From Isoetes taiwanensis (Eukaryota > Streptophyta > Lycopodiopsida > Isoetales > Isoetaceae): a stretch of 64,000 nucleotides of DNA. Shown here piece after piece: positions 10,871 through 40,947 of the stretch; the first letter of the stretch is position 1; each line of letters starts with the position of its first letter. The stretch spans positions 4,278,001-4,342,000 of the forward strand of contig JAJEKV010000064.1 in the NCBI GenBank assembly GCA_021234155.1. Reading direction: 5' to 3'. The notes under the pieces are model-generated. The model was not told the DNA's origin. It did not search any database and saw nothing but the letters and a program-made list of their open reading frames with translations. The position numbers and the translations under genes are program-made.

Positions 10871-12023
10871 AAAATATGTTTTTTTTTTAAGATTGTATTT
10901 GTTTTATTACGTAGAATAAGCTTTAAAATTTTAAAATAAAAATGTTATTATGTCAATGGAAGTAGCTACGCAGCTCTAAATGTTCGCGGTCGCGATCCTT
11001 CTGAACATTTTTACGCTTTCTAATGTGCAACTCTTACTCAAAAAAGAGCTCGGCTTAGCCTTACAAATGTCAATTTCGGATACACTGCTATTTTATGGGT
11101 GAAAATCATAAAAATAAACGGCAACTTCTACTCAATTGCAACCAATTACGGCGTTTTATAGAGAACCAACAACCTATTTCATACTAAACGAGAATTCCGA
11201 AATTCTCTAATTAATTAATTCTTGCATTTGAGTCACTGTGAATCTTACATATTACATTTGGTTTTCCTGGCCTGGTGGCAAAGCTTTTTGGTTTGATTCA
11301 TAGAGAACACTACAATGGGTTTGTCCCGTGACATCGTTAGATTTTCCAGAAGAACCATGTCTTAACGTAATTCTGAGAAGGTGAAATTTTGTTCTTCTGT
11401 TACTAAACTCTATAATTACCAACATTCATTCCTTGCTTCTGTATTTATCTTTATATACTATTGATCTTGGTCCTGCTTTCAGAGGCATGACTTATATTTA
11501 ATTCCCTATATTTCCTACATCCAAATTTTGAATGCCTTCTGAAATGATAACGCTAGCACAGCATGACAATCTGCAAAGTCCATTACCATTCTTGCCAAAA
11601 TTCAAAACCAGCTTACTTTCTACTTACCTATTGGAAGAAAATTGAAGGCCAAAGAACAAAAAGTCGGAATAGCAGATGATCAAAATTTTATTCCTGCAAA
11701 GACTGACCCAAGCTGGAGCTATCATAGCTGAATTCCAAATGTGCTATGCAGTTTCAAAGCAAACTCCAGCTGATATAAGCTTGCCCTATGATACATGCAT
11801 CTGGATCTCTTCAATTGCATCTCCAAGCAAAGAATAAAGGACCAAAATCATAAGGAAAAAGACCTGCTTTGCCACCCTTCTTATGCTTTAGCAGAGCTTG
11901 TAATATGGTAGTCTAACTTTGTTTCGTATATGCATGTTGCAAAATTGTAATATGGTAGTCTAACTAAGTATTATTCCATCCTGGCTACAAAACATATTCT
12001 TGTTGGTTTTTTAAAATAGCATG

Positions 12024-12051
12024 CATTAGAGTTTTTTTGAGGTCAAATAAG
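12024..12051 (+). repeat. Left TIR of the giant element
   Basis: 28 bases identical to the reverse complement of 27368-27395. Inside it lies a C-rich stretch with repeated CCTAACCTAAC-like words (12,120-12,185) and a GCCATCGANCTT repeat (12,240-12,320). Confidence 0.85.
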
Positions 12052-12819
12052 AGCCTCCTAAGAATATATTAGGGGGGCCGCCACGTAGGATCCCGAACCT
12101 AGCTTCCCCCCCTCCATACCTAACTTTCACTCTCCCCTAACCTAACTACCTAACCTCCGAACCTAACTCCCGAACCTAACCCCGCAATCATTATTTCCTA
12201 ACGAGCTAGGATTTTCGTTTTCCCACCTTCGAGCTTATGCCATCGAGCTTCAGCGCCATCAATCGAGCTTGCCCTCGCGCCATCGACCTTGCCATCGCGC
12301 CATCGATCTTGCCATCACGCCCAGGCAGTTTTTAAATTCGAATTATGGCGGATTCTTGCCAGCAAATAGAGCGAAAATTTTCAATTTCGCTCTGTTTGTT
12401 GGCAAGAATCTTCCTAATTCTAATCTCCGCTCCGGTTCTCGGTCTTTTGCAACGTCAATGGCAAAGGTATTTGGTTTCCGAGTCGTCATTGCATTCCTTT
12501 GAGTGTTCTTCCTTCTAATACTTCTGTTTCAGGATCAAACTAATTCCGAGGGTCAATTTAGAGTGCAAGTGCCAAAAGAATGCACGCCTTACGGGGAATA
12601 AGTTCACTTGGAAGCAACCAATAGATGAAGATGCATTGCGAGCTTACGGAGCCATGAATATAGACCTCCGGGCTAAAGGCCAATCAGTATCCATGTGATC
12701 CTTTCACTCGAGCCCATCAAACTTCCACTCGCATCCGGTCTTATTGAATTTGCTTGTAAGGGATGACAAGGGTTACTAGGTTCTTGTAATAATTTGGTTA
12801 ATGGTATCTTGATCCACAT

Positions 12820-14633
12820 TTGCGTGCCATGTATAACCACTTGTATGGATTCAATTGCAAAGTTTTATCGATGTTAATCAGCTCCAACAGCGAACTAGTT
12901 TTGTCTCAACAATGCCGCAAGCTCAATGAATTGGAGGTAGAAAATCAGAAATTGGTGACTGAGATGAATGCACTGCAGCAAGGAATGAAGAGGGTTGCGC
13001 AAGAAAATGATTCCCTTCACAAGCAGGTCAAACGCTTAAAAAGAACTCCACTGGGGATCAGGGAGAGGGCAAAAAACACGAAGCCCATAAATATATTAGC
13101 CCCAGGGGTGGAGGCTCAAAAAGGGTCATGGCTATTAAAAAGCTTGTTGATCCAAATCTTGCAGAAGAAAATAAGAGAAAACCTGCTAATATTTCCGGTT
13201 TATTAAAGAAATTAGTTACTAAAGATGATGTATTGAGAATGTTAAAGCTTCCTGGTAGCATTCAACTTAGGAAAGCTGTAGTACATCAAGCTATTGCGGG
13301 GAGTTGGGGAACAATCAAACCTCGAGAATCGGTGCAAGAAGCGTGGTGTGACAATGTCGGAATAAGTAGGCAAGCTTATATTGCTTTGTTCAAATGCTTG
13401 CAGGATGGCCTTAAACAACAAGGCATTACCAAAACTATTCTACTACCAAGGATGACTAGTGTGAGGACTTGTAGGTCATCGAGAAACAGACAAGTGCAAG
13501 AGCTTCTTGGTGATATGTATCAGCTGACCAGCAGTGTCAACTTGGATACATTGGCATCCTATATTAAAGGTAAGAAGAAGTCGAAGTTTGGTGATACTTT
13601 CTACCTTAATGAAAATAACAATTGCTGGATAGACTTAACTAGAATGCTTCAGCTTTTGGTTCGATTTTATGATATGAAGGTAGAAGAGTCTTGTTGGCAA
13701 ACTAAGAATTGTTTTGATTTGGATGAAATGGAATTGGTGAAAGGCGAGAAGTACGAGAGGGTTTCACTGAGTCTAATGAACAGAGCTTTGAATACAGGGA
13801 ATGAAGAGTCAAATCTAGATGGTAAGTTTTCCGTCCAGTCTGAAGATCACATTTGGTGGGTTGGTTTATTTCAGGTACCAGAGGAAAATCACAGTATACT
13901 GAAATGGGTTTTTGATCAAACACCCATTCCCACAATGATTGCCTCTCACGGAATCGGAGAAAAACTTGCAGTTCCTGGATATGGTGAGTACGAGGTTGAA
14001 TGGCATCTTGCTACAGATTTGAAGACAATAAAATGCATGTACAGAATGAAGCATGGTGCTGGTAAGACTACTCATGCTTGTCCCTACTGTGTCTATGCAA
14101 GAAGAGATTCAGCTGGATTGGACAAGAGTACATTAGACATTAGAATGTGTCCAGGATGAGCCACCAAATAGAGAAGAGAAGGACACAACCTTGATGCCAA
14201 TTCTGCAAATTCCGTTAAGAAGAGTACACATATGCACCCTTCATGCTTTCTTGAGAATCATAGACAAGATGGTTTACATGAGTCCTGTTTGCTTGGAATA
14301 AATCACCCCAAAGCTCTAGGGAAGCTGCCATGCATGAAGTTGAAAAGGTGCTATCTAATGTGGGACTTCATGGTGGGCACTACAAAATACTTCAAGATCC
14401 AAAGGTATCCGGCAAGGTTCCCCTGAAACCCAGTATGGGTGGTCCAAAGGCTAAGAGGTTTTGCCTCCATGAAAAGAGAACTTATCCGGTGTTTGGGAAG
14501 CTTACAAGGATCTTATTGCACCCCGAGGATGATCGAAATGATCGTGGCGAGATCACGCTGAAGAAAATCAAGGCATGGCGGGATTTCTCTCAGATCTTGG
14601 TAAAGGAAATGCGCGAAAAAAGGTAGTGCGGGG
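12820..14633 (+). pseudogene. Transposase-like gene (RNase H-fold type suspected) with N-terminal coiled coil
   Basis: Seen: from 12,820 the frame encodes a leucine-zipper-like coiled coil (LNELEVENQKLVTEMNALQ...). A frame change near 13,045 leads into a 343-codon frame (13128-14159) starting MAIKKLVDPN. Its C-terminal half reads WWVGLFQVPEEN, IPTMIASHGIG, VEWHLATDLKTIKCMY and then HACPYCVYARRD. After further frame breaks comes LHAFLRIIDKM (about 14,240) and GWRDFSQILVKE-like sequence to about 14,630. Known: hAT, MULE, RAG1 and related transposases place a CxxC zinc pair shortly after a catalytic Asp. Inference: ATDLK supplies the Asp, CPYC the zinc pair and the later His the ligand. Position next to the left TIR supports a mobilisation role. 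I could not match it to a named superfamily. Confidence 0.5.
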
Positions 14634-15197
14634 AAAATGATGTTGCCAAATTCAGGAGGCGATCACAAACTTCACTAAGTCTTTCGACGGCATGGGGTGA
14701 GGCCAATTTGACTCACTATGTCCATATTACGTTCGCACATGGCGTGTGGTTTGTCGGGGAATATGGAAGCCTGGGAATTTGGAATACACAGGGGAATGGA
14801 GAAGTCCCATAAGCAAGCAAAGGCGCATTCTTCCATTTCACTCAACAGGAGAGGTTGGGTTGGGAATTCCTTGCAGCAGATGTGTCAATGGTTTTACTGA
14901 AGGATCATGTGCAAGTGGGTGAAGAAATCACGCGAAACGAGTGAATCAACACTTGCTAAGTTGTTTAGACAAAAAAAATGAGAAAAAGAGGGCAGCTTGG
15001 TATAAGTCCGCAGCTGTTGAGCGATCAAGGGAGTGGAGATCAATGAGATGTAGGCAAGGCAAAGGTTATGTCCGTATTGAGAGCTCTTGATAACGTCTCT
15101 ACTGTAAAAGAGTTGGTTTATTTATCAGTTCGATAGTGCTCAGTGTGTGAAATGCTGTATTGTAAGTAAATTGGATGCATGTATTGCACATCGTGGC

Positions 15198-15490
15198 CAC
15201 ATTGCGAAATATGGGCCTGTAACTAAAATTGGATCTCATTATTTGACCGTAGCTACCGGTCGCGAAATAGGCCCTTCAATAATTTGTAACTGAGTCGATT
15301 TCGCACCGTGGCGACGGTGCGAAATATGGGCCTGTAACTAAATTGGATCCACGTATTTCGCACCGTAGCCATGGTGCGAGATAGGCCCTTCAATAATTTG
15401 TAACTCAGTCGATTTCGCACCGTGGCTACGGTGCGAGATAGGCCCTTCAATAATTTGTACCTGAGTCAATTTCGCACCGTGGCTACGGAA
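15198..15490. repeat. Hairpin array A (about six units)
   Basis: Palindromic units based on CGCACCGTRG-CYACGGTGCG recur at about 15,199, 15,246, 15,303, 15,359, 15,415 and 15,474. Spacers read GGCCCTTCAATAATTTGTAA or GGGCCTGTAACTAAATTGGA, and the period is about 56 bp. The array touches the 3' end of the H2B-like gene on the minus strand. Confidence 0.9.
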
Positions 15491-15925
15491 GAAGAGCGGA
15501 CCCAACTCCACAAAACCCTTGTACTCGTTGTAGTACGCCCTAATAAGGCCATACATCTGTCCCTTACAAATTTCATGAATGAACTCTGATATGTATTGAT
15601 CCAGAGAGTGTGCTAAATAACCAGCACGAAGAAGAGGCCTGAACTGCTGTAGCATCTCGTCCAGATAAGGAGGGGGTTCAAGAATTCCCCTCATTGCAAG
15701 TCTCCTATAACATTCAGATGGATTAATTTCCATCAGTGGCTCATGACCACAATCAAATCGCTCCAGAATGAAGTTGATCAACTCCATTGCAAGCTCCTTG
15801 GTGGGACTGTGGTGCAACCTCCACTCCAAGAAATGGTCAAATAGCTCATCATCAGGCCGCACAGAATGCCTGGGGCATGCTTGCAGGCCTTCTGGAGTAG
15901 CCCAGGGAGGATTGGGTCCAATCAT
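15338..15925 (-). CDS. Histone-fold-like protein, tentatively H2B-like (copy 1)
   Basis: Seen: ATG at 15925, MIGPNPPWATPEGLQACPR, then FDHFLEWRLHHSPTKELA, MELINFILERF, EINPSECYRR, GILEPPPYLDEML and a tail ending LGPLFFRS before the frame runs into the hairpin array; the first stop is at 15338 (195 codons, about 145 outside the array). Compared with H2B, the helix-2 pattern (M-x-I-M-N-S-F-I-N-D-I-F) and the I-T-S-R-E strand-to-helix-3 pattern are echoed by M-E-L-I-N-F-I-L-E-R-F and I-N-P-S-E. A paralogue lies at 16837-17379. The upstream leader is a purine-rich repeat (15,950-16,330). H2B identity is a hypothesis; the family itself, being duplicated, is real. Confidence 0.4.
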   Translation of the reverse strand: MIGPNPPWATPEGLQACPRHSVRPDDELFDHFLEWRLHHSPTKELAMELINFILERFDCGHEPLMEINPSECYRRLAMRGILEPPPYLDEMLQQFRPLLRAGYLAHSLDQYISEFIHEICKGQMYGLIRAYYNEYKGFVELGPLFFRSHGAKLTQVQIIEGPISHRSHGAKSTELQIIEGPISHHGYGAKYVDPI

Positions 15926-15949
15926 TTGCAAAAGCAAGCAAGGATCACC

Positions 15950-16330
15950 GACGGAGCAAGGAACAAGGAGCAGAGCAAGGAACAAGGAGCAAGAAGCAAG
16001 GAAGAAGACCAGGTAGCAGGGAACAAGGATCAAGATCAAGCAGCAAGAAGCAAGGAACAAGGAAGATCAAGGAGCAAGAAGATCAAGGAACAAGGAAGAC
16101 CAAGTAGCAAGGACCAGGACGATCAAGTAGCAAGGAACAAGGATCAAGATCAAGTAGCAAGAAGCAAGGAACAAGGAAGATCATGGAGCAAGGAAGCAAG
16201 GAAGCAAGGAACAAGATCAAGTAGCAAGATCAAGAGCAAGGAACAAGACCAAATAGCATGAAGTAGCACGAAGATGAAGGAGCAAGAAGCAAGGATCAAG
16301 ATCAATTAGCAAAGAACACGGAACACAAGG
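15950..16330. repeat. Purine-rich AGCAAGGAACAAGGA-type low-complexity leader
   Basis: Degenerate repetition of GCAAGGAACAAG / GATCAAG words directly upstream of the minus-strand H2B-like gene (pyrimidine-rich in its sense). Similar words recur at 20,215-20,345, upstream of the H4-like pair and of the other H2B-like start, suggesting a shared promoter or leader module. Confidence 0.7.
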
Positions 16331-16544
16331 TGAGAAGTGAAAGCAAGGTGAGAACACGAGAAGTGAAAGCAAGGTGAAAACATGGAACAAAGGTGAGAAG
16401 TGAAAGCAAGGTGAAAGAATTTATAGCTACGAATCCAATAATGTTGAAGTATAATACTAATACTGTTGAAGTATAATACCAAGAAAGTTGAAGAATAATA
16501 CCAATAATGCTGAAGTATTATGGGCCTGTAACTAAACTGGATCC

Positions 16545-16632
16545 ACGTATTTCGCACTGTAGCCACGGTGCGAAATAGGCCCTTCAATAATTTGTAACTG
16601 AGGCGATTTCGCACCGTGGCCACGGTGCCGAA
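16545..16632. repeat. Hairpin array B (two units)
   Basis: Units near 16,555 (CGCACTGTAGCCACGGTGCG) and 16,610 (CGCACCGTGGCCACGGTGCC) with the same spacer sequence as array A; located between the two H2B-like genes. Confidence 0.9.
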
Positions 16633-16836
16633 TATGACCACAAATAAAACATTCACATGAGAAAATACAAGGAAAATGGTAGAAGAAATCATTCAATTAC
16701 ACAAAGTGTAAGATTGCTAAGATAATACATGATAATATGAGGATGTTACTTAATTACACGGAAATCACTTGCTTATATACTTAATTTCTATGAAAATCTT
16801 TATACCAGTTTATACACATATTCCAGTGGAGTATCT

Positions 16837-19800
16837 TCACCTGTGATATGTACATATTATGTGTTGTGTGCTATGTAGCCATAGGTCACGTGTATCCCAA
16901 GGAATTGTATCCCAGGTGGAGAATCTAGACAGTAACCACAGGATGTTGAAGTCAAGGGAACGGAATAGGAGCTTACCAATATCCACAAAAGATTTGTAAT
17001 GGAAGTTGTAAAGTTCAATGAGGATATAAATCCTATTCTTCTCATTAGTAGGAATGACCAGAGGCACATACTGATCCAGAGAGTAGGCCATGAAACCATG
17101 GAAAAGCATGTCCTTCAACTGTTCTAGCCTATCTTCTAAATCTGAGGGGGGTTCAAGAAGTCCCAAAGCACTTAGAGTGAACCTTGCTTGACTCGAATTG
17201 ATCTCCTCCAGTGGAGGGAGATGACGAGTATAGCGATCGATAATGAAGTTGATCAGTTGCCTTGCAAGCTCTGTGGTTGGATCGTGACGCCATCGATGCT
17301 CCCAAAAGTTGCTAAAAAAATCATCAAAAGTGCACGTATTAATTCTGCCACATGCTTGCAGGTATTCCGGATCAGCCCAGCGAGGATCCCGGGGATTTCA
17401 CCTCTAACATTCCGTACCAAACATGTGCGTGACTGGTTAGGGGTTTTTTTTTGCCTCACACGTTAGTATACGGTCTGAAAAAAATACGGGTTCACCACCA
17501 CATTTTCGGACATGGTCGTTTAGGGGTGTGGTATGGAACTCCTCACCAACTTCATACGGTAGAGGGGTGCTTGAAGATCCAAGCTTTGAGTCATATGGTT
17601 CCTTCAAGATCATAGGGGTTTGCAATGAAGGTTTCGGTTTTTTTTGAATGAAGGTTTTTTTTGTTGTCGGCGGGGACTTTTCATTGCTCCCTAGGGTTTT
17701 AGAGTCTATACTCTCTACACGAAAAATTAGTCGCCGGTTTGTAGCGGCCGTAGATATGAGCAAGATTTCTTTCAATGGAGCATGACATGATGCAAAGATC
17801 AAGACCACTAAGGTTTTCTGTTATGGCCGTTTTGGCAAAGGTCTTTGGCGAGGATTTGACGTTCACTTGCCTAGAATATAAAATGGAAGGTACCAAGGTT
17901 TTGAGGCTTGAATGCTACCGTTTATGATCTCTAGTTATATAATAGTCACTTGTTTGCAACATGTTTACTCCGCCTTCTCTTGCTCTTAGTAAATTATCCC
18001 TCGTCCAAATGCAAGAACACCGCTTCTATTATGAGCGGCTATTGCACTTGTAATTCTCTGTTGGGTGCTTCAATGCATATCTTAACCTAGAAGAATGTGG
18101 CTCGAGGGCCAAGCTTTTCAGTTGAAGAATGCCGCTGCAAAGTAGTTTTGTTATGCGGTATTTTTGCTGATATGGAAGCAGCCGGGACAAGTTTTGAAGG
18201 AGTTGTTGCAATAACAAAAGGTGCATGCAAAAAATAGCGGGGTTGTCACCGAGAAATCTTGTTAGAAAGCATTGCTATATGTGGAAGAGCTAGTGGAGCA
18301 AACAACACGGAGCTGGATGCACGCATTTAACCCTCGCTACAAGTTTTCAAGACCTTGTGCATGAGGACGTCCCTCCTAACCGGGTTTGGCACACGTTTTT
18401 CTAAATAATATGGGAACAAACACAATAAGGGATGAAGTTTAATTATATCCGCATACTACTAGTGTTGTTCTTGATGTCTTACATATGCAAAAGCTAAGGT
18501 TCTATCATGCTTAGAAGATATGGTAAATTTGAACTCTCTACAAGTATGTTTTTGCGGGGGTGGATTTAATCTTGTCTCGTGATACTACTAGTGTAGTTCA
18601 TGATGCTTCAACTATAGCAAAAAAATGAAAGTTCTATCTTGTAGCATTAATGAGAATAAGTCCGGATTTTGTATAACACATTTTTTTTCAGTTAAAGCTT
18701 TTCCGAAATGATCATGCTCTAGAAATCCTTTTTGTGTCATAGGGTTTTGAAAGTTTCTCTAATGCACGTCTTATATTAGGTGTTGTCAATGAAGCGTTTT
18801 CCTCATAAAAAACAGGATTCTATATATTGCTACTAAGTTGTCCTTTACGTATTGTTGTGGTGGTGGCAAGATTGTCGAAAGTGGTCCACCTCCTTTGGAT
18901 TCAAGGATGCCAAACGAATCTGCTCTGTTACTCGAACAAGGTCATCTGTTGCATCTGTGGATCATTGATGGTGAAACACGAAGTGGTGATAAACAAGGAA
19001 TCTCCCTCTTCTTTGGGGAGGAATTTTGATAAGTTGCGGGATACCGACAACCCGTATGGAGCATGCGCATGATCTCAAGGTTGTGTCCAATCGGGAGCTA
19101 CTCTTAGCTAACGAGAGGGATATTTCCATTGATCTTTGGGATGAAGGTTTTGAAAAAAGTGTACGAGCAAGGCCATGGATCTATTGAAATTGGTAGAGAA
19201 TATCCGGAAAAGTATGCCCCGACAAAGGGGGGCAGTACAAGTTAACGAGAATATGTGGAAAGAAGTGCACTGAAAGGGGACATGGATCAATTGAAGTCAG
19301 CATGGAATATTTGGAAAAAGGTGTGCGAAAGCAAGGACAAGGATGGAGTTACAATTGAAGCAAGCACAAGCTTTTGAAAGAGATGCACCGCAAGGAGGAC
19401 AGGTTAGATGAAACATCAGCTCAACATAAAGACTAATAACGTGATAAATGTTCTTTTAGCTCTTGGGATATACATCTCCTTTTTGTCTATGAAATGATTA
19501 CTTATTCAAATGCTTTGAACGGGCATGGTTACTTGTATATAGCTTTCCTTGCACGGTTTAGTGATACGACGACCATTGGTAAATAAGTTTTTATTGGAAT
19601 AAATATTCTCATTTGACAATACAAGCATCATCCATTGGAAAGGAAAAGCAAACAAAAATTGTTGTTTCTTGGCTTTCAAGAAGGGTTATGTTATGTACAA
19701 ATTATGAGCACGGATTTTAACTCATCCGGAACACCTTTATTGCTGAATTCTATATGCTCTACATAGCAAAGGCTTTGTTAAATGTATAATGATTTATGGT

Positions 19801-20198
19801 CTTTGAAGAAAGCTTTTGCAAACTATCTTTTGAGCACTTAGAAAAAAGCAAGGTGGGTATGGTGCGAGATATCTTGGTCCGTCTTTGGTTGCTTGGTAAT
19901 CGGTCTTTGGATCGGCCCGGGCTTTTAGAGTCTCCACAAACCATTTTTTCCGAATAAGGCGACGGCACAAACTCAAGTACAAGATCGGGTAGGGGTATGT
20001 AAAACGTAACATAGTCCCAGCGTATATCTACGGTGATGGGGGCGGGAAACCGGGTTTTTCTATTTACGTATGTAGGGGTTTTCGACCTCCAAAAGTCGTA
20101 TACAAGGGGTTTTCTGGTGACCCCTTGCACGCACATGAGGTATCCCCATGTGCCTAGGTGAAATCCCCGGGGCGAGGATGTTCTTGCAAAGTTACCAT
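16837..20198 (-). pseudogene. H2B-like copy 2, split by a hAT-like insertion
   Basis: Seen: the main segment (17379 down to 16837) encodes HPRWADPEYLQACGR, FWEHRWRHDPTTELARQ, LINFIIDRY, EINSSQARFT, GLLEPPSDLEDRLEQL and KSFVDIGKLLFRS. These align throughout with copy 1 (PPWATPEGLQACPR, LINFILERF, EINPSECYRR, ILEPPPYLDEML). The first codons are missing here but are found at 20198-20180: ATG GTA ACT TTG CAA GAA C, joining in frame when the 2,784-bp insertion and one 8-bp target copy are removed. The join gives MVTLQEHPRWADPEYLQ, mirroring copy 1. The gene was therefore intact when the insertion arrived. Histone identity is as tentative as for copy 1. Confidence 0.55.
17388..20171. mobile_element. 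hAT-like element with 16-bp TIRs and 8-bp target duplication
   Basis: Seen: the left end CCCGGGGATTTCACCT (17388-17403) is the exact inverse of AGGTGAAATCCCCGGG (20156-20171). The flanks GCGAGGAT at 17380-17387 and 20172-20179 are a perfect 8-bp duplication. Inside the ends, further partial inverted similarity (ATGTGCGTG, AGGGGTT) is visible. No transposase could be recognised inside, only short broken frames, so it is probably non-autonomous. Eight-base duplications are typical of hAT, though the termini are not the usual CAGGG type. Confidence 0.85.
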
Positions 20199-20621
20199 TT
20201 GCAAGAAACTAGTGGAGCGCGAACAAGGAACAACTAGTGGAGCAGCAAAAGGTGCAAGGAGCATGCAAGAAAGGAGCAGACAGTGAGGCAAAGAGCAACA
20301 AGAAGCGGACAGGGAGGCAAGGAGCATGCAAACAAGAAGCAGACAAAGACAATGAAGGCATATATGCCTATTTAAAGAGAAATCAGGTATATATGCTATA
20401 TACGTACATTATATTTACGCTTTGGATTGCAGCCATGGATGAAGTTTGACACCATTTCTCACGCATTCACCAAGATCATTGTAGCTCATGTAGCATACGA
20501 GTACCATACAAGTATGTATATGATAATAATTTTGGTATGTATATACCATCAATAATTTTCTATGTATATACCATCAATAATTTTGGTGGGTATAAATATA
20601 CATCAAATTGCCGAGTGCAGC

Positions 20622-20891
20622 AACATTGGCCTCCGTCTAGCCATGTGGTCTCATTCTGGTCCTAAACGTGATTCCATTACCTGCAAGATGAATCATGAAA
20701 ACTTCAAGCAGTGTCGCGAGCGAGAAATACCCATGGAAGACTGGATGACCACTGCCGCTCTCAATCCTCGCTATTATCCTGATCCCTTCGATGTTATCAT
20801 CCATCTAATATGGAATAGAGAGCATCAAATGTACATGATAGAAAAGATCACTGGGGTGCCTGGTGACAATGACTCAGAAGAGTCCCCCTAA
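20622..20891 (+). CDS. Small protein, tentatively H4-like (copy 1)
   Basis: Seen: after a probable acceptor (GAGTGCAG at 20,613-20,620) the frame encodes NIGLRLAMWSHSGPKRD, SITCKMNHENFKQC, REREIPMEDWM, DPFDVIIHLIW, NREHQMYMIEKI and stops at 20891 after an acidic end. It shares DSITC-x-M...CxxRxIP...F-x-V-(V/I)-I-H-L with the neighbouring frame at 21052-21369, so the two are paralogues. The AT-rich word GTATATATGCTATATACGTACATT-like sequence precedes each copy. Resemblance to H4 (RDNI...RRG...F-x-x-x-V-I) is weak in this copy. Confidence 0.35.
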   Translation, partial: NIGLRLAMWSHSGPKRDSITCKMNHENFKQCREREIPMEDWMTTAALNPRYYPDPFDVIIHLIWNREHQMYMIEKITGVPGDNDSEESP

Positions 20892-21051
20892 ATCAATACT
20901 CAGAAGGTATATATGCTATATGCGTACATTATATACATGTGTATTTTGTACATTATGCTCGTATGTATAACCAATAATGCTGCTACTGCATGTCAATAAT
21001 TTTGTTCGATATAAGTACGGTTCCACTCAATGCAGAAGGCATCCATTTGCT

Positions 21052-21369
21052 ATGTCTCGGCCTGGTTATTCTTATTACAGGGGGTCTACCTTGCCTCCTC
21101 GTCCCGAAGATATGGACTCCATTACTTGCACTATGACATATAATGATCTTTATAGATGTTCTCGGAGGGGTATCCCCTTGATCCCCGGTTTGGAAGGAGT
21201 AGCAGAGGGCCGAAATCGTTCTTCCGGAGGGTTTTATCGTGTTGTTATCCACCTTTGGAGGGTTCCAGAGCGCGCGTCTATGAGATTAATCGCATCGCTC
21301 AACTACCTGCTCATGATTGCGAATGAGCTTCTTCATTCATGTATGCTATGCCTCTTATATGAGTTCTAA
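21052..21369 (+). CDS. Small protein, tentatively H4-like (copy 2)
   Basis: Seen: ATG at 21052, 105 codons, close to the 102-103 of histone H4. MSRPGYSYYRG leads to DSITCTMTYNDLYRC, SRRGIPLIPGLEG, GGFYRVVIHLW, RVPERASMRL and ASLNYLLMI. Placed beside H4, D-x-I (D24/I26 region), R-x-G-(V/I)-x-x-I-x-G-L and F-x-x-x-V-I fall at matching spacing, and the Arg-Arg-Gly is at residue 38-40 versus about 39-41. This could be coincidence at such divergence. The start codon follows an acceptor-like TGCAG, so an upstream exon may exist. A direct repeat (ATGCTATGCCTCTTATATGAGTT) covers the stop. Confidence 0.4.
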   Translation: MSRPGYSYYRGSTLPPRPEDMDSITCTMTYNDLYRCSRRGIPLIPGLEGVAEGRNRSSGGFYRVVIHLWRVPERASMRLIASLNYLLMIANELLHSCMLCLLYEF

Positions 21370-21535
21370 GTATATGCTATGCCTCTTATATGAGTTATAA
21401 GTATGTAACCATAAGTGATACATGTGATCCGTCTATTTACCGCACATTTTCAATTTGGAAAGCTCTTGGCCATTTTCCTTACGTGTAGATTCTAAATTCA
21501 GTTCAGCATTCTCTTCGCAGTGTGTGGAATAATGC

Positions 21536-21735
21536 ATTTTTCGCACCGTAGTCACGGTGCAAAATTAAGCCCTCAAAAACTTTGGAACTACTATTTTCAA
21601 GATCGTGGCCCGCGATTAAAATAGACCTTCCCAAAGAATGTGGAATAGTCATCGAGCCAAGCACCGTGGCGATCGCGGCGAAATAGACCTTTCCACAGAA
21701 TGTGGAATAGTCATTTTCGCACCGTGGCCACGGTC
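21536..21735. repeat. Hairpin array C (about four units)
   Basis: Units near 21,541, 21,603, 21,660 and 21,717, more degenerate than in other arrays. Spacer: AGACCTTCCACAGAATGTGGAATAGTCATTTT type. Lies between the 3' ends of the H4-like copy 2 (+) and the H3-like gene (-). Confidence 0.85.
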
Positions 21736-21866
21736 AACACTAGTAGATAAATGCACAGCCGCAATAAATAGAATAGCAAATAATTACAGATAAATATAAA
21801 ACACGCATCACGATAAATATTAAAACACTCATATATTAACAACCAAAAAAGTGTTACAAAAGGATG

Positions 21867-22700
21867 CTAAGGGAGGCATCCACGGAAGTATCTAGCTAAG
21901 GCATAGTCCCTGTCCTGCACAGTAACACGTCCTCTGTGCACACAACAGCGGACACTGTCCTCAAAGAGGCTAATTAGATGAGCCTCTGCTGCCTCTTGCA
22001 GTATGTCCAAGGCCTCTGCTTGGATTCTATTCACCTCCTCCTCCACCATCGGGACGAAGTCTGGTGCTCTGTCCCTCCTCTTCCTCCTTGATTCCTTCCT
22101 CCTCTCAATAATTTCCTGCATCTCAAACCTGACCATTCTAGCGAATGCAAACTTGGGAATCAGAGGCTGGGTGCGTGCTGCCAATTACCTAATCTCCCCT
22201 CAAAGCACGAGTGCGGGAGGAGCACCCTTTATCTTCTCAGGGCCACCATATCTAACACTAGGCTCCCCTTCCTTAGGCTTCCGCTTATTACCAAGCTTAT
22301 CTGTCTCCTTGGCTGCATCTCTCTCAGCTTGTCTCCAACTAGGAACAAGCCTAGGAGGCTTTGCCGGCTCGGATTTCTTCGGCTTGGATTTCAGCTTTCG
22401 CCGGGGCTTCCTAGTACCTGTTCCACTCGAACTAGGTTTCCCGGGATCAACATCTTTGGTCCCACGATCTTTGATCTTTTTGGGGCGGCTGATCCCATCG
22501 ATCTTCCCCGGACCGGTGATCTTCGATCTTGCTAGCCCGTCGATCCTGGCGATCATCTTTGGACCATCGATCTTTGGTCATCTTTGCACTTCCATATTCT
22601 GCACTTCTTCCTCCCCCCCACCACTGCCAAACGTTTGGGAATGCAATAATGGTCCCAACGTCTGAGACGAGGAGATAGCCTGATTCATGAGCCACTGGGC
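21867..22700 (-). pseudogene. H3-like histone-fold protein with basic N-terminal tail
   Basis: Seen: the C-terminal part reads LIPKFAFARMVRFEM, an inserted Arg/Lys-rich loop of about 18 residues, then IQAEALDILQEAAEAHLISL, FEDSVRCCVHRGRVTVQDRD and YALARYFRGC. Against H3 this matches [47 protein letters not shown] and IQLARRIRG with no gap after the loop. Upstream in frame are LVL-stop-GEIR-stop-LAARTQ, equal to the H3 segment VALREIRRYQKST; the stops are TGA (22200-22202) and TAA (22185-22187), each one C-to-T change from Arg/Gln. Before that lies a long Lys/Arg/Pro tail (GTRKPRRKLKSKPKKSEPAK). The histone fold is clear; whether it is canonical-like or centromere-like is not. It appears fused to the DUF8039-like part upstream. 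Confidence 0.75.
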
Positions 22701-23259
22701 ACCATGGCCCTGGTCAACCGGCCAAAGCATCTGGCCGTGTGTAGAACCCCCGGTGGTTTCAACATGTAATCCAGCTCATTACACAAGAATTGGAATGGCC
22801 GTGGCACATGACGTATGACCCGACGGCTTCCTCCAATGTCTCCGCTCCAGGGGTGGGGAACGGCAGGCTGGCTGTTGGATCCAGAGCTGTGTCCACTGAT
22901 ACCACAATACAGTCATCTGGAACTGGAATATTGTGGCAGACAGTGGCGTCACGGAAAACTCCTTCCCCAACAACCTTACCAGCGCTCAGCAAGGTGACCC
23001 GACTAGGAAGCACGGTCGGGTTTTCGAAATATTTGTCCACACTATTATTAATAGTGTGGACGACATTTCCAAGGGTTTGCCCGAAGTCTTCTGTAAGGAC
23101 AATCTCCTCTACATCCATCTGCTGGCTTGTGATGGGAATACCTGCCTCGCCCTCTGTGATTGGAATAGAAGTCTCGGCGCTGCTAGAAATGACCTCGTCA
23201 ACATTCTGGCGCTGGTCAAGCGCCTCATTTTGTGGGATTTCAGAGCTAGCGCCTTCCAT
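22701..23259 (-). CDS. DUF8039-like domain of transposon origin (N-terminal part of the H3-like gene)
   Basis: Seen: true ATG at 23259 (MEGASSEIPQNE), an acidic linker, then LPSRVTLLSAGKVVGEGVF, RDATVCHNIPVPDDCIVVSV and LPFPTPGAETLEEAVGSYV, followed in the next frame by NELDYMLKPPGV. Known: this arrangement (hGvpIP-x-x-c-x-x-V-x-V ... lpiPt-x-g-x-e-TL-x-x-A-x-G-x-x-v) is common in plant proteins associated with CACTA-type transposons, which I believe are catalogued as DUF8039. One or two frame changes (near 22,790 and 22,700) separate it from the H3-like part on the same strand, with no gap for a promoter, so a single fused gene is likely. Confidence 0.6.
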
Positions 23260-23347
23260 GGATATGAGCGGATTTTAGCAAGGAGGAGAAATTCAAATAA
23301 GCAATATTGTCTGTCCCGATCCCATAAACCCCTAGACTAAAAAATGT

Positions 23348-23590
23348 TCTTGGTAGCCACGGTGCGAAATCGGGCAGTCTAAAAACTGCCGACATCCTGT
23401 TTTCGCACCGTAGCCACGGTGCGAAATAGGGCAGTCCGAAAACTGCCGACAGCCTGTTTTCGCACCGTAGCCACGGTGTGAAATCGGGCAGTCTGAAAAC
23501 TGCCGACAGCCTGTTTTCGCACCGTAGCCACGGTGCGAAATAGGGCAGTCCAAAAACTGCCGACATCCTGTTTTCGCACTGTAGCCACCA
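23348..23590. repeat. Hairpin array D (five units)
   Basis: The best-preserved array: units near 23,350, 23,403, 23,461, 23,518 and 23,576 at a 58-bp period, each CGCACCGTAG-CCACGGTGCG. Spacers contain a second small hairpin (GGCAGTCTGAAAACTGCC). It lies between the 3' end of the H2A-like gene and the 5' end of the DUF8039/H3 gene. Confidence 0.95.
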
Positions 23591-23767
23591 TTAAAGAATA
23601 CCTAACATATACATCTAACAAGGATTTATTGCTCACATTGAATTCTAACAATTAATGAATATCATAAATGAACATTCATACAAAAGCAATTTCGTCATAT
23701 GAAAACAATTGATACATTATAGAAAAGACAATTTATAGAAAAGACATTATATCAATGCAAAAGTTTT

Positions 23768-24352
23768 TTAAGTACATTTCCTTTTCTTGGCATCAGGGCC
23801 TGTAGTACCCGAATCAAAATCTTCTAAGTCCTCTTCTTTTACTCCAGCCCCAATTGCATCTAACAGATACAATATGTCAGGGTCCTTCTGTGCACAGGAC
23901 AAGCGCAGTGTTTCCTTGTCCGCTCCACCCAAGTCTAGAGCTACTTTATTTGCAAGGACAGAGTACATTTTGAAGCCCCTGAAGACATACATTGCGATAG
24001 CCCTATCTACTGCTACCACTCGATCATAGTTTGAGGCTAGGGGCACGTGGTTGCCAGCTAATGACAGAGCCTTAAGCTTGAGGACCTCCTGTACTCCAGA
24101 TGGACTATATTTATTGTGAAACACAATAATTCCCCCCTTGTGAAGGTAGCCCATATAATGTGCAATACTGGCGTCCCGACCTAGGGTGACTCTCTGATGC
24201 CTTGCACAGAAGTCATCAATAAATAACTCCTGCATAAAAGAAACATCAGATTCAAGAAGAAATAGAAAATGAAACCAGATAAATACCTCTTTTGTCCCAT
24301 TCGACAACGGTTTGGGTTTGTTATTTTGAAAGAGGACTTTGGCAAAGCTCAC
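23768..24352 (-). CDS. H2A-like histone-fold protein
   Basis: Seen: an upstream exon segment (SFAKVLFQNNKPKPLSNGTKE) ends at a GTATTT donor near 24,290. The next exon, after TTTTATGCAG, encodes ELFIDDFCARHQRVTLGRD, SIAHYMGYLHKGG, VQEVLKLKALSLAGN, NYDRVVAVDRAIAMYV, YSVLANKVALDLGG and an acidic, then basic end (DAKKRKCT). Against H2A: (F)PVGR, AVLEYLTAEILELAGN, (N)KKTRIIPRHLQLAI, LNKLLSGVTIAQGG, in order and with nearly equal spacing (39 versus 36 residues between GR and AGN). Known: this is the H2A helix 2/loop 2/helix 3 signature. The stop is at 23768. No in-frame ATG was found for the first exon (it opens after GTG), so more 5' sequence or decay is likely. Confidence 0.6.
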   Translation of the reverse strand: MSFAKVLFQNNKPKPLSNGTKEVFIWFHFLFLLESDVSFMQELFIDDFCARHQRVTLGRDASIAHYMGYLHKGGIIVFHNKYSPSGVQEVLKLKALSLAGNHVPLASNYDRVVAVDRAIAMYVFRGFKMYSVLANKVALDLGGADKETLRLSCAQKDPDILYLLDAIGAGVKEEDLEDFDSGTTGPDAKKRKCT

Positions 24353-24592
24353 GTTCTATGAATTGAAGCAAGTGTTTGAAGAGCTAGCGACTTCAAATTT
24401 GACATCTTTCAACGCTTCATACCCCTCAGACTTTTTTGCATGACAATTTCAAATGCATCCTCACGGAGGTATTGAGGATCCATCATAAGTCACGGCCTCC
24501 ATCATTTTCCGGGGACATCGGGTCTCAAAGTCTATAAGTCCTCCCGGGCCGACAACATGGGCATATATCCGCCCAATATCTCGCGTCTTCTC

Positions 24593-25284
24593 TCAACCCT
24601 CGTCGCCGGATATGTCCGGCAACAACAAGTATGGTTTCCCACCTACATGGATGGGATATGCTTCTGATAGCCCCCAAGTAGATAACTTTTTCTCGGAGAC
24701 CTCCTCTTCCACAACCTCGATCTCCTCATTTTCCAGTACGAGCTTCTCTTCCTCAGGATCTATCGGCTCCTCTCTTGGTGAGGGGGGCGCGTTGTTTGGC
24801 GACGAATTGCACTTGAAGAAGAGCGGCATCTTTGCTTGGCTTAGTGTAAATCATGTATGTCTTTGAACATGATATCTAGGCCAAAAACTTTCCTTCCCCT
24901 CTTGCACCATAGATTCGCGGTAGTTTCTTCAAGAACCTTCTAATTCGGTCTTGATCGGGTTTGAAACATCTTAAGAAAAGCACGCATGCTTAGTGAAGGC
25001 AAACTAGTCACGGGACATGGTTTCCGCGTCGGGACCAGCTCGACCATGAAGCTATGAAGGATGCCGCCATATGCATCGAGTAAACCTGTTGTTAATCGCG
25101 TGCCATAATGTCTACGCTTCGGGCAAAATTATTATATACGATGGGTTGCATCCAGCGGCTCCTCTAGCTCCTCTTCGAACTCTTCGAGGGATGCTTCGGC
25201 CCGAAAATCCCGTTCTTTCTCCACTATTTTGTCATACCATGCGCTAAACAGCTCCCATGCCTTATCTGACCCGCTATTTGCCAT
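24593..25284 (-). pseudogene. Decayed gene with acidic region, function unknown
   Basis: ATG at 25284 opens MANSGSDKAWELFSAWYDK followed by an acidic stretch (FEEELEEPLDA) and stops. Further down come LDAYGGILHSFMVEL, LSMRAFLKMFQ, then KVLEETTANLWC and GRKVFGLDIMFKDI, a stop, and a very acidic frame PIDPEEEKLVLENEEIEVVEE ending at 24593. At least three breaks. Because it lies directly upstream of the H2A-like exon it may be that gene's lost 5' part or a separate gene. Confidence 0.3.
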
Positions 25285-25329
25285 TCTCGTGGAGCAGCGC
25301 CTCAATTTATGACAGTTAGAATGTGAGCG

Positions 25330-25695
25330 CCACTAACAACGTGGCAACGATGCGAAAATAACACTTCCTTAATTTATGCTATGCACAAATTCGCACCGTG
25401 GCTACGGTGCGAAAACAAGACTTCGATAATTTATTGTATTTACAATTTCGCACCGTGGCTACGGTGCGAAAACACCCCTTCCATTTTTTATTCTATGCAC
25501 ATTTTCGCACCGTAACAACCCTTCAATATCTTATTGTATGTATAATTTCGCACCGTGGGCATGGTGCGAAAATACCCTTTCATTTTTTATGCTATGCACA
25601 TTTTCGCACCGTGGCTACGGTGCGAAAATGGCCCTTCCATATATTATGAGAGCCACAATTTCGCACCGTAAGTACGGTGTGAAAACACGTCCACA
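25330..25695. repeat. Hairpin array E (about seven units)
   Basis: Units near 25,335, 25,391, 25,449, 25,504 (half), 25,547, 25,603 and 25,665 with spacers of the type CTTCCATATTTTATGCTATGCACATTTT. It lies between the 3' end of the BAH-like gene and the 5' end of the next minus-strand gene. Confidence 0.9.
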
Positions 25696-25764
25696 ATCAG
25701 AGGTGTACATAATTTCGCAATTAATATACAATAGATCTCCAATTAACAATCACTTATATTTATA

Positions 25765-26977
25765 TTAGATAGATTCATATACAGATATGACTTTGGGTGG
25801 CATGCATGACCCCAATTTATAGCTTTCTTCTCTGCGCTTTCCCACCTTCTGGCCATCTATCATGAAATGGAAGAAATTTAAGTCTGTCTCAAACTCTAAT
25901 TGCCGCCGAACATCGAATAGAGACCACTCACTCTCCGCTCTCAGACTTTTGAACAGCTGATTATCCTTATGAATGTTCAAGTCTATGACAACGGAATGAG
26001 TGCCATCATTGTCATCTTGTTCGACAGGAATCCAGACGTACTTTCTTCCTTCACGGACATTTCGCCATCTCCTATACTTAAAAGTGACATACAGAGTTTG
26101 CTTCCGAATGCAATATCTGAACCGAACCGTGTCTCGACTTATCCTGCATTCAGTACATTCAGCTCCATCGAACACTCCAACCTTCAAGAAATACACTATC
26201 TAAAAACTATCCACAAATTTGTTGAACTGTAAACATCTTCAAGGTCTTCTTTACATTGTGGTAGCTCTTGAATATGGCAATGAAACGGATCAATTCCTAA
26301 ATTTATCTTCACATGCCCATGAGACTCCTCCCTTCTCCTTCAATGCCGCGTGAACATTTCCTGCGACAACTTACTCCGTGCTAATAAGATAGAAGTGGCA
26401 TCCGAGGCCTGCGCAAGATAAATCGGACAAAGTTTGGGCAATGGAAGCTCGGTTAGCTTGGATCTTCGTGGAGAGTATTCATACCTCGAACCATATACCC
26501 CTTTCTCTCGAAATGCTTGGTGTGCTACCTTGAACAACAAGCAGCCCATATCTTGGTGAAAGCAATGGAATACATCGCTTATCGAAAGTGTGAAGAGACA
26601 GTGTTCTCCACATCGGATATACACAAACACGAGAGAATAGGAATGAAGGCTGGATAAGTAACTTGAACTAATTTGAATATGGATTGCATAGAATTACATA
26701 CTCACAATTTGCTTCTAACCGTGGGAAAAGTTCGTCGCTTGCTTATTTTTTCTTTTGCCATATCTGTTGGAGTGTATACATGCCTTACTTGTATAAATAT
26801 CTCTTTGCCTGATCGAAATCCGACCACCAAAGCCTTCCAATGTGCAGAAACATCATTTCTCCTGCATCTTTTGACTCGCCATTCACCTCGCATTGCAGGT
26901 TGAAGTGTAACAAAGCTCCCGGTCGACACCACGAAGCTTTCAAACTCATTTTCGACTGTGATAGAGCTTATAGCCAT
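25765..26977 (-). CDS. Multi-exon gene with BAH-like N-terminal region
   Basis: Seen: ATG at 26977; the first exon encodes VSTGSFVTLQPAMRGEW, then HWKALVVGFRSGKEIFIQVR and HVYTPTDMAKE. Known: BAH domains show G-x-x-V-x-L...A-x-I-x-x-I...x-V-x-V-R-W-(F/Y)-Y-x-P-x-(D/E)-(T/M), which this echoes. A second open segment (26630-26340) contains VYIRCGEHCLFTLSISDVF and CLLFKVAHQAFREKGVYGS. A third (26196-25765) encodes a 143-residue piece (VTFKYRRWRNVREGRKYVW, VVIDLNIHKDNQLFKSL) and ends at 25765. Exon joins were not fixed. BAH proteins bind nucleosomes or modified histone tails, which would suit an element carrying histone-like proteins, but that link is inference. Confidence 0.4.
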
Positions 26978-27367
26978 CTAGTCACAGAATTCAAATCAGA
27001 ATATGGAGCGGAATCGAAATACTAGGAAAGGCTACGCGATTTTACCTTGATCGAAGTTTTTCTGCGGTCGAAACTCCCCTTAGCGCAGGTCGAAGCAGTT
27101 CCCGAGTGAACCGAAGTTCCCTTGTCGCGGGCAATCGATCTTCGCGCAAACTCTGTTGTGGAAAACACCTGAGCGGGAAATGAGGGGGGCTAACGGTTAT
27201 AATTGCCACGTGTGTAATCTGAAACCCGAAGCTAGAGGCACGGATATTACCGAAGCTACATGCAGTTGACACCTGGAAAGGCGAAAGCAAGGCTCGGTAA
27301 AAAAGTTCTGTACAAGCTCGGCTCCCCATTGGCCGCGAGCTTTTTGACGTGGCATCGAGTAAGGGCC

Positions 27368-27395
27368 CTTATTTGACCTCAAAAAAACTCTAATG
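27368..27395 (-). repeat. Right TIR of the giant element
   Basis: Exact inverted copy of 12024-12051; the flanking base beyond is ATGTATATCTC or TATATCTC depending on where the end is placed. Confidence 0.85.
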
Positions 27396-27399
27396 TATA

Positions 27400-38299: not shown

Positions 38300-39790
38300 T
38301 GGTGAGGGATATCACTTTGGCCCCCACACACACGCCCCATAGAGGAGGACCCGGTTCAACCAAGGCCCCGAACAAGTGTGCTGGTGACCCCATGCATACT
38401 GGCTACGCCTTCAGGATTGTTGTTTTGCATTGCATACGTGGCTTTCGAGCTGCGCAGTGACCCGTGAAACGATGGATGCATCCCGGTGTGTGGTAGTAGA
38501 AAACTTAATGCCCAAATACTTATAAGATCGAGCCACCTCCACTACCGCCCTTTGGTAAGTGAATGAGGGAAGACGTGGGTGCCGGGATGATGGGACAAAG
38601 AAGCACCCTTGTCTTGGCCAAGTTAACTCTCATGTCGCTGAATTGGCGAAAGTGTCCAAAGCATCCGGTGGCGTTGCATGTCCCTCGGGGTATATGCGAA
38701 GCAGGTCAACATCATCAGCATATATGAGTTGCCGGATTATGTGGTGCATCAGCGCCTCCCGGGTGCTCGCCTAGCCATTCTTCTAGCTGGTCAATGTACA
38801 AGCCGAAGAGCGTCGGGGATAGAGGGCAGCCCCGGGCGCACCCCAATGCTACTAACAACGGGCTCCCCGACGGTGTGAGACGACCGAGCAAGCCTCGTGA
38901 TAGTGCGTATATAGCATTCTCGCAAGTCGACGGGGGTCCCTAGGTCGTTTTCAATGGGTCCCACAACTTATCCCCGAGGCACGCGTGTCAAAAGCCTTTT
39001 GCGAAATCCACAAAGCAACAAAGCGATGCATTTCGGGCGTTGATTCCGGCTATCCTCTATGAGTGTTCGCAGAGTGAAAATATGGTCAATAGTAGAATGC
39101 GGGGGCGGAGGCCCCGCAAGCGGCGGTGAGCCCGACTTCTCCATCCCTCCGCCCAAAGTGTCAATCGCTGCTCAAGAATCCCGCAAGCAACTTGGCAAAG
39201 ACAGAACTGACCATAATGGTACGATAGTTGGCTAGGCTGTGGGGGTCCCCTGCTTTGTATATGGGCACAACTCTACTGGTAGTCCAGTGCGGGGGGAAGC
39301 CTTCTTGCAATGCCCTGTTGAAGAGTGCCTTGGAGAACCGGCACCATTGGGGCCCGCCCACTTGAGAAGCTCTCGCACCGCATACCATCCAAATCTGCCT
39401 GCCTTCCGGTTAGCGGCGCTATGTGCCCATTATGACATCCCCTTCAGTAATGACCAGTGCTAGGCCTGTCTGCGGAGGTACTGGTGCCCGGCTTCCCATT
39501 GGGTCATACAGCTGCTGCAAGTATCTCACCCATTGTTCCGGGGTAATATTTCCTGTGGGCTGTGCAGGCCGTGTCAGAACATGAATTGTTCCATCTCCTC
39601 CCCATTTAAACAATTCGATGCATATCCCATCTAAATCATGTGTTTTATTGCTCTCCATGCCAGAAATAGTTTCTCTAACATCGGCCTTAGAAGAAAGATC
39701 AGCATCCCAAGATATTAAAGGCATCCCTTCAATGTTACTTTTGGCGTAAATATCCTGGACCATTTTTAGCAGATCGTCCATATCAAGCAC
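38300..39790 (-). pseudogene. LINE-B reverse transcriptase (broken)
   Basis: Seen: ISGMESNKTHDLDGICIELF with KWGG (RT domain start, normally K-x-P-G-x-D-G-I), then FPPHWTTSRVVPIYKAGD, SLANYRTIMVSSVFAKLLAG, and, in another frame, IYADDVDLLR with the catalytic YADD at 38,711-38,722. At least three frame changes separate these blocks. It would copy the element RNA at a nicked target; this copy cannot. Confidence 0.7.
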
Positions 39791-40945: not shown

Positions 40946-40947
40946 CC

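Follow-up and report, generated by a model that had tools for sequence, protein, structure and literature searches.

Whether a plant DNA transposon may carry genes for several distinct histone-fold proteins is the question raised by the interval 12021-27398 of the 64-kb window (the whole stretch of DNA that was analyzed). A first-pass annotation had described this interval as a TIR-flanked element with a transposase-like gene, hairpin arrays and a set of histone-fold-like genes. We give about an even chance to the reading of the interval as a single large TIR DNA transposon of a plant genome, old, decayed and of unassigned superfamily, which bears palindrome arrays and includes a divergent H3-like gene among its accessory genes.

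The ends of the proposed element are the following:
12021-12055, plus strand: left TIR of 35 nt, exact core 12024-12051
27364-27398, minus strand: right TIR of 35 nt, exact core 27368-27395

The exact 28-bp inverted ends were confirmed: 12024-12051 and 27368-27395 are matched over all 28 nt, and the extended pair of 35 nt is 94% complementary. A 23-nt TIR core was found twice in the window (up to three mismatches) and not once in 100 shuffles, which argues for a single transposon. Further support comes from seven ORFs of at least 170 codons in the interval, some of which overlap on opposite strands, compared with a mean of 0.1 in simulation. On the other hand, a search for target-site duplications of 4-10 bp within 8 bp of either end found none, which counts against this reading; lengths of 2-3 bp cannot be judged by this check, and decay of a duplication is possible. 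Target-site duplications are found in most TIR superfamilies, not in all of them.

The lack of such a duplication also fits a composite locus, whose ends would derive from one or two small elements and whose 15 kb in between would be ordinary repeat-rich DNA with nested insertions. The same can be said of the sequences just inside the two TIRs, which show no mutual match beyond 35 nt, and of the stretch at 17.4-20.2 kb, which has no ORF of more than 149 codons. However, the TIRs are mirror images that occur at these two places only in the window, and one family of palindromes runs throughout the interval and is absent from the rest of the window. We regard a composite locus as unlikely.

Next to the left end lies the transposase-like region:
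13011-14159, plus strand: transposase-like ORF, 382 codons from stop to stop, by-eye motifs WHLATDLK and HACPYC
14171-14299, plus strand: transposase probably continued in a different frame, judged by eye and without Pfam match; frameshift or intron
14330-14809, plus strand: probable continuation in a third frame, with TAG at 14624-14626

The long ORF behind the proposed transposase-like gene is present, and an ORF of at least 300 codons appeared in none of 200 simulated elements. Its resemblance to a transposase is by eye; no family was assigned in Pfam (E up to 1) or PDB (E up to 10), which counts against the decayed transposon, as do the frame changes required by the continuation. The piece at 14627-14809 gave matches at chance level only (RAG1, E = 0.044; DUF6338, E = 0.058). 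A search for prokaryotic relatives of the transposase-like ORF found none.

The central gene of the proposal is located on the opposite strand:
21867-22184, minus strand: H3-family histone-fold ORF, recognized by Pfam, PDB and our own profile
22185-22556, minus strand: upstream extension of the H3 frame, with an alpha-N-like segment and the stops TAA (22185-22187) and TGA (22200-22202)
22759-23259, minus strand: ORF upstream of the H3-like gene, without Pfam match

The H3-like protein was confirmed. Pfam placed an H3-family domain at 21870-22184 (minus strand; E = 4.4e-13), and PDB gave a match with E = 5.7e-12 over 89 of the 105 amino acids given. Among 801 ORFs, our own H3 profile gave this one an E-value of 9e-18; the lowest value in 16,821 controls, reversed or shuffled, was 0.033, with both E-values scaled to 801 sequences. 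The hhalign probability for H3 was 98.7%. The plant H3 core is identical to the ORF at 26 of 50 positions, the next best six-frame position reaching 12. Loop 1 contains an insertion of about 21 amino acids. Upstream in the same frame, the alpha-N-like segment shows 11/26 identities, the highest value in the window (next, 9), and is preceded by a Lys/Arg/Pro-rich stretch. Two in-frame stops cross this segment, which counts against the decayed transposon. Because the upstream similarity continues in frame across both stops, this copy of the gene looks broken, an intron being the alternative. The ORF at 22759-23259, which we take to resemble a domain of plant transposon proteins, possibly belongs to the same gene.

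Plant transposons are well known to capture genes (PMC8903248, PMC13317346), and the H3-like gene might be a host CENH3 or H3-variant gene acquired by Pack-type capture, a passenger that never served the element and is now decaying. The interrupted frame is consistent with this possibility, and the best two PDB matches of the ORF are fission-yeast CENP-A (cnp1). An enlarged loop 1 together with a basic tail would be in keeping with a CENH3. The core is equally near typed Arabidopsis CENH3 and typed H3 (26/50 identities each), and the PDB bit scores for CENP-A and H3 are practically equal (48.9 vs. 48.3), the latter speaking against a captured CENH3. The loop 1 insertion is presumably larger than that in plant CENH3, and the gene lies among other ORFs of the element which have the same arrangement of arrays. 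On balance, we consider Pack-type capture a less probable alternative.

The remaining ORFs had been suggested to encode further chromatin proteins:
15482-15922, minus strand: P5, paralogue of P6; the frame runs into array A to 15338
16837-17397, minus strand: P6; the part in common with P5 is 16957-17397
20562-20891, plus strand: P7, weak paralogue of P8
20977-21369, plus strand: P8, weak paralogue of P7
23768-24232, minus strand: ORF claimed to be H2A-like, part after a probable intron
25765-26199, minus strand: ORF P10
26702-26977, minus strand: ORF claimed to be BAH-like, without Pfam or PDB support

P5 and P6 are a true paralogue pair with 65/144 identical residues (15482-15922 and 16957-17397), and P7 and P8 form a weak one (16/47). 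The constraint on P5 and P6 is weak (dN/dS 0.70 to 0.80 by three methods), which counts against the decayed transposon. For these duplicated families, the tentative identification as H2B or H4 failed: no score of P5/P6, P7 or P8 was clear of shuffles, and no histone was found among their PDB matches (E up to 10). The closest approach to a signal was P5/P6 against H4, with an hhalign probability of 0.4% that was reached by one of 20 shuffles. Among all 801 ORFs, the best E-value was 0.44 for the H2B profile (best control, 0.071) and 0.58 for the H4 profile (best control, 0.040), the latter belonging to the H3-like ORF itself.

The ORF at 23768-24232 (sequence examined, 23771-24232) looks like H2A by eye around LSLAGN and in the following 40 residues. 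The proposed H2A identity was rejected, with no Pfam family (E up to 1), no PDB histone (E up to 5) and no place among the three matches of our own H2A profile (E up to 5); 33 of 200 shuffles scored as well, and the hhalign probability was 1.2%. The BAH-like candidate (sequence examined, 26705-26977) likewise found no BAH match in Pfam or PDB (E up to 10), searches in which HMMER filters may hide weak matches. P10 matched a designer pentatricopeptide protein in PDB (E = 3.8e-6); this match was set aside because no stretch passes individually, the pattern expected from the summing of weak partial matches along a repeat protein. When 21 element sequences were compared with Pfam, histone-fold families came up for the H3-like sequence, and all other matches were at chance level. 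The idea of several distinct histone-fold genes is not supported by these searches, as only H3 among H3, H2A, H2B and H4 passes any sequence test. The AlphaFold2 models of the 23768-24232 ORF (single sequence, pLDDT 32.4) and of P5/P6 (two sequences, pLDDT 39.8) are both too poor to use, and the statement that no histone fold exists beyond the H3-like protein holds for the sequence searches.

These results also bear on the idea that a near-complete, divergent set of core histones packages or marks the DNA of the element itself. One true H3-family protein is present, and several nearby ORFs have no family, one of them with the H2A-like appearance described above. The failure of the H2A reading in all five tests, H2B and H4 profile matches worse than those of the controls, and the broken H3 frame argue against such a set, and we find this idea very improbable indeed.

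A viral origin was also considered and rejected. IMG/VR contained no relatives of four proteins or of the palindrome, in scans that need exact peptide words; no viral gene was recognized among the element sequences scanned, and PHROGs returned one match for ten proteins (E = 0.072). Elsewhere in the window, a P450 ORF (43241-43732) has cinnamic acid 4-hydroxylase, a plant enzyme, as its best PDB match, which indirectly supports a plant origin of the DNA.

Five palindrome arrays, all unstranded, are distributed among these genes:
15188-15491: array A, flanked by the transposase region on one side and the P5 3' end on the other
16554-16628: array B, downstream of P6
21543-21736: array C, consisting of two units, on which P8 and the H3-like gene converge from either side
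23348-23588: array D, downstream of the ORF claimed to be H2A-like
25336-25685: array E, downstream of P10

The hairpin arrays proved genuine. The palindrome has 14 matches with up to three mismatches, mostly spaced by 57 bp, all of which fall within 15300-25683 and none elsewhere in the window. All five arrays are located at or downstream of the 3' end of an ORF. Spacers of 10 hand-chosen units are 67% alike when both come from one array (9 pairs) and 39% alike when they come from different arrays (36 pairs). These three observations support the decayed transposon, and the likeness within arrays agrees with the target repeats of VANC proteins, whose units evolve together (PMC10398659; PMC5735166). 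Several features count against it: arrays A and B have nearly the same spacer, no array follows several of the ORFs (P7, 22759-23259, 24593-24829 and 26702-26977), and a weak palindrome at 19848 falls within an ORF. A second element with hairpin arrays and its own TIRs is present in the window at 49030-49575, which also counts against this reading; it has no histone match, and therefore arrays are not tied to histones.

The arrays occupy positions expected of hairpin signals at mRNA 3' ends. In the stems (14 units of 11 pairs, or 154 cells, leaving out the two outer pairs, which are mostly unpaired), there are 11 departures from Watson-Crick pairing, 8 of which retain G-U pairing in RNA of plus-strand sequence but not of minus-strand sequence; these events are few and partly dependent on each other. 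Five of the seven ORFs beside arrays are on the minus strand, opposite to the plus-strand RNA favored by the G-U pairs. Rfam gave no match at gathering scores.

Returning to the decayed transposon, a possible mechanism may be outlined. The element would carry a transposase-like gene, whose product may act on the TIRs, along with a number of accessory genes. Among these would be the gene for a divergent H3-family histone-fold protein that has a basic extension at its N terminus. The palindromes at gene 3' ends are putative binding sites for a protein encoded by the element. When intact, the H3-like protein might have become part of the host nucleosomes on the element, or imitated them, and thereby weakened silencing. 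Our model for this role is the VANC proteins, which clear silent marks from VANDAL elements via tandem non-coding motifs. A broader proposal is that there is a family of large TIR transposons in plants whose members specify divergent chromatin proteins of their own. These would comprise a member of the H3 family, its loop 1 enlarged, and partners too diverged to recognize, and palindromic arrays at the gene ends would recruit them to build a distinct chromatin for silencing evasion or independent segregation; we consider this joint proposal very unlikely.

Transposons whose cargo genes act in DNA demethylation or anti-silencing are already known. For transposon-borne histones, no report was found among the open-access papers searched, a set with few subscription papers. 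If our preferred reading is true, a transposon-borne histone-fold protein would put a component of the nucleosome itself into the arms race, and intact copies, if they exist, would make it possible to test directly if a mobile element can supply its own histone variant. If the gene is instead a captured CENH3 or H3 variant, this would be a common kind of gene capture, notable for its cargo.

Several known systems share features with this element. In Mimivirus, transcript 3' ends follow a hairpin rule, which resembles the palindromes at gene 3' ends observed here; the Mimivirus hairpins are described as not conserved in sequence (PMC4402537), whereas those of the element form arrays of one conserved sequence. 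Giant viruses and bracoviruses also have histone genes in a parasitic genome, and entry into the nucleosomes of the host is assumed for viral histones that occur singly (PMC9145170). Our element differs from them in having no recognized viral gene and no IMG/VR relative (four protein queries). In the brown alga Ectocarpus, giant KDZ, EnSpm and Sola1 elements of 15-30 kb are likewise large DNA transposons with accessory genes, and their transposase is frequently pseudogenized, which favors the decayed transposon; one of them encodes a ParB-like/DNA-methyltransferase protein, presumably capable of marking the element's own DNA, and the report on these elements does not contain the term 'histone fold' (PMC12477816). 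Fungal DNA transposons, including KDZ, hAT and EnSpm groups, similarly carry genes for epigenetic proteins, namely TET/JBP dioxygenases proposed to aid escape from silencing (PMC12730594). In contrast, the element described here has a plant host, a histone-fold cargo and a transposase without assignable family. VANDAL elements of Arabidopsis are also plant DNA transposons with accessory genes and tandem arrays of non-coding motifs whose units evolve together (PMC5735166, PMC10398659). No VANC-like protein was recognized here among the 21 element sequences compared with Pfam; the motifs of our element are palindromes at gene 3' ends, and an H3-like gene is present among its accessory genes.

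The 15.4-kb interval, best read as a decayed large TIR transposon, had been given exact inverted ends in the first-pass annotation (12024-27395), and a repeat search recovered them at these coordinates and extended them to 35 nt (12021-12055 and 27364-27398, 94% alike), beyond which the likeness between the two ends breaks off. The 23-nt core of the TIR has two matches in the 64 kb with up to three mismatches, and none of 100 shuffles contained any. No direct repeat of 4-10 bp was found within 8 bp of either end, and thus a target-site duplication is not demonstrated.

Several histone-like genes had been proposed within these ends, and the H3-like one (ORF 21870-22184, minus strand) is well supported. 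It matched the Pfam Histone family (E 4.4e-13, with 89 of its 105 residues as the query), H3 and CENP-A chains in PDB (5.7e-12 to 2.4e-10 among the best 60 of 179 matches) and our own H3 profile (9e-18, against 0.033 for the top-scoring sequence among 16,821 reversed or shuffled controls), and hhalign against H3 gave 98.7%. In the alpha2-alpha3 core, 26 of 50 residues are identical with a manually entered plant H3 sequence, the next-best six-frame position having 12. By descent the gene may be either H3 or CENH3: the core shows the same number of identities (26/50) to a CENH3 sequence entered likewise, and the PDB scores do not separate H3 from CENP-A among the best 60 of 179 matches. His113, Arg116 and Asp123, which we take to be contacts of the H3-H3 four-helix bundle, are conserved, and by eye approximately 21 additional residues lie between alpha1 and alpha2.

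Upstream in the same frame is an alpha-N-like segment (11/26; maximum of the window background, 9), which is crossed by two in-frame stops (TAA 22185-22187 and TGA 22200-22202). With the stops read as X, the H3 profile found this segment as a separate domain (4.6e-5 in a search of that one sequence). A Lys/Arg/Pro-rich stretch lies further upstream in the frame, and ORF 22759-23259, also upstream, may belong to the same gene. The H3-like protein would belong to a cargo that counters silencing or alters chromatin; capture of the gene as a passenger would explain the stops in its frame equally well.

The remaining histone-like assignments and the BAH-like one found no such support. ORF 23771-24232, annotated as H2A-like, fell into no Pfam family (threshold E 1). 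Its five PDB matches (E up to 5) included no histone, and it was missing from the three hits (E up to 5) of an H2A profile built from six manually entered sequences. When it was aligned with H2A, 33 of 200 shuffles scored equally well or better (z 1.2), and its hhalign probability of 1.2% was reached by one of 20 shuffles (2.2%). AlphaFold2 with single-sequence input gave a pLDDT of 32, too low to speak for or against a histone fold. For the duplicated families suggested as possibly H2B- and H4-like, duplication was confirmed for the first and weakly indicated for the second, but histone identity was not supported. The minus-strand ORFs P5 and P6 (15482-15922 and 16957-17397) are paralogues (65/144 identical) whose shared frame contains no stops, whereas the remaining two frames on the strand contain 4-14; their dN/dS is 0.70-0.80. 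Their nearest histone signal was H4 (hhalign 0.4%, reached by one of 20 shuffles); 28 of 200 shuffles matched H4 as well as P5 did, all PDB profile matches were at E of at least 1.1, and AlphaFold2 gave a pLDDT of 40. The plus-strand ORFs P7 and P8 (20562-20891 and 20977-21369) form a weak pair, and a PDB search to E 10 returned nothing for them. No BAH match to ORF 26705-26977 was found in Pfam or PDB. Because HMMER filters can mask weak matches, these negative results indicate absence of support rather than disproof. The region 20385-21017 shows signs of a 420-520 bp tandem duplication carrying both P7 and P8, with a 30-bp motif at 20385 and 20905 (97% alike) and a 25-bp motif at 20574 and 20993.

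Seven stop-to-stop ORFs of at least 170 codons were detected in the interval, compared with a mean of 0.1 in 200 first-order Markov simulations of it (at least one in 18 of 200); these do not equal seven genes, since some overlap on opposite strands. The longest (13011-14159, plus strand, 382 codons; simulation maximum 284, n = 200) contains WHLATDLK and HACPYC motifs and is transposase-like by eye. The long ORF of the proposed transposase-like gene was recovered but a family match was not: neither Pfam (E up to 1) nor PDB (E up to 10) gave a family, the sole PDB match being a designed repeat protein (E 0.028) with no single stretch passing alone. Pieces downstream of this ORF fall in different frames, implying either a broken or a spliced gene. 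The piece at 14627-14809 matched RAG1 at no better than E 0.044 and DUF6338 at 0.058 in Pfam. Comparable unclassified transposase-like proteins are known from invertebrates and plants.

The hairpin arrays were also borne out. The pattern TTCGCACCGTRGCYACGGTGCGAA, with up to three mismatches, has 14 matches, all within 15300-25683, and none in 100 shuffles. A looser palindrome core (plus strand, up to 4 of 18 mismatches) has 20 sites, all within 15188-25680, which form five clusters and one weak lone site at 19848:

15188-15491, array A, flanked by the transposase region and by P5, whose open frame enters the array
16554-16628, array B, after P6
21543-21736, array C, between the convergent P8 and H3-like genes
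23348-23588, array D, after ORF 23768
25336-25685, array E, after ORF 25765

Every cluster coincides with the 3' end of an ORF or lies beyond it, a pattern rather than a statistic, judged on gene models made in this analysis. However, no array follows several smaller ORFs (P7, 22759-23259, 24593-24829 and 26702-26977) and the lone site is inside an ORF, which argues against a strict 3'-end rule. Ten of 14 within-cluster intervals are 57 bp, that is, 19 codons, and the P5 frame therefore stays open through array A, where 15338-15482 reads as an imperfect peptide repeat of the GPISHRSHGAK type. For ten hand-picked units, spacer similarity was 67% when both units came from one array (9 pairs) and 39% when they came from different arrays (36 pairs), and the sole compared unit of array B has a spacer almost identical to that of array A. 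When five pieces were folded as single strands, the z-scores ranged from -2.2 to -8.1. Of the 11 non-Watson-Crick pairs in stems at 15303-25680, 8 are G-U as read on the plus strand and A-C on the minus strand; such a bias, in events that are few and partly dependent, would preserve hairpins in plus-strand RNA only.

A second, 546-bp element (49030-49575) is bounded by 24-bp inverted repeats that match perfectly and contains a hairpin array of the CTTTCTCGACTTCGCGAGTCGAGAAAG type. The period of this array is 67-69 bp, and its sequence is unlike that of the arrays in the large element. No histone profile match was found within the 546-bp element, and no target duplication was seen by eye. Since this element has an array and no histone match, hairpin arrays may be typical of TIR elements in the genome and have no tie to the H3-like gene. 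Elsewhere in the window, ORF 43241-43732 (plus strand) encodes a P450 whose best PDB match, cinnamic acid 4-hydroxylase (4.1e-24), points to a plant host, and 39766-40947 (minus) and 50330-50833 (plus) contain LINE-like endonuclease/exonuclease and reverse-transcriptase domains in Pfam. A 148-nt inverted repeat at 50956-51435 (97% complementary, arms 184 nt apart) is perhaps a MITE or foldback element.

Four protein queries and the palindrome gave no relatives in IMG/VR, in scans that depend on exact peptide words, and the transposase-like ORF gave none in GTDB contigs. Our search of open-access literature found no report of a transposon with histone-fold cargo, and the word "histone" is absent from two articles on giant transposons and gene capture (PMC6431247 and PMC13317346). 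Giant DNA transposons of a brown alga reportedly carry accessory genes and, often, a pseudogenised transposase; one encodes a ParB-like and DNA-methyltransferase protein (PMC12477816). TET/JBP genes are reported in transposons of fungi (PMC12730594). Thus, chromatin-related transposon cargo is already a known kind. VANC proteins provide the closest published behaviour: they bind tandem-repeat motifs in non-coding parts of the VANDAL elements that encode them and induce loss of silent marks, the repeat units evolving together within a repeat (PMC5735166 and PMC10398659). By analogy with this system, we infer that the palindrome arrays are predicted protein-binding sites and that the H3-like protein may have the cargo role suggested here.
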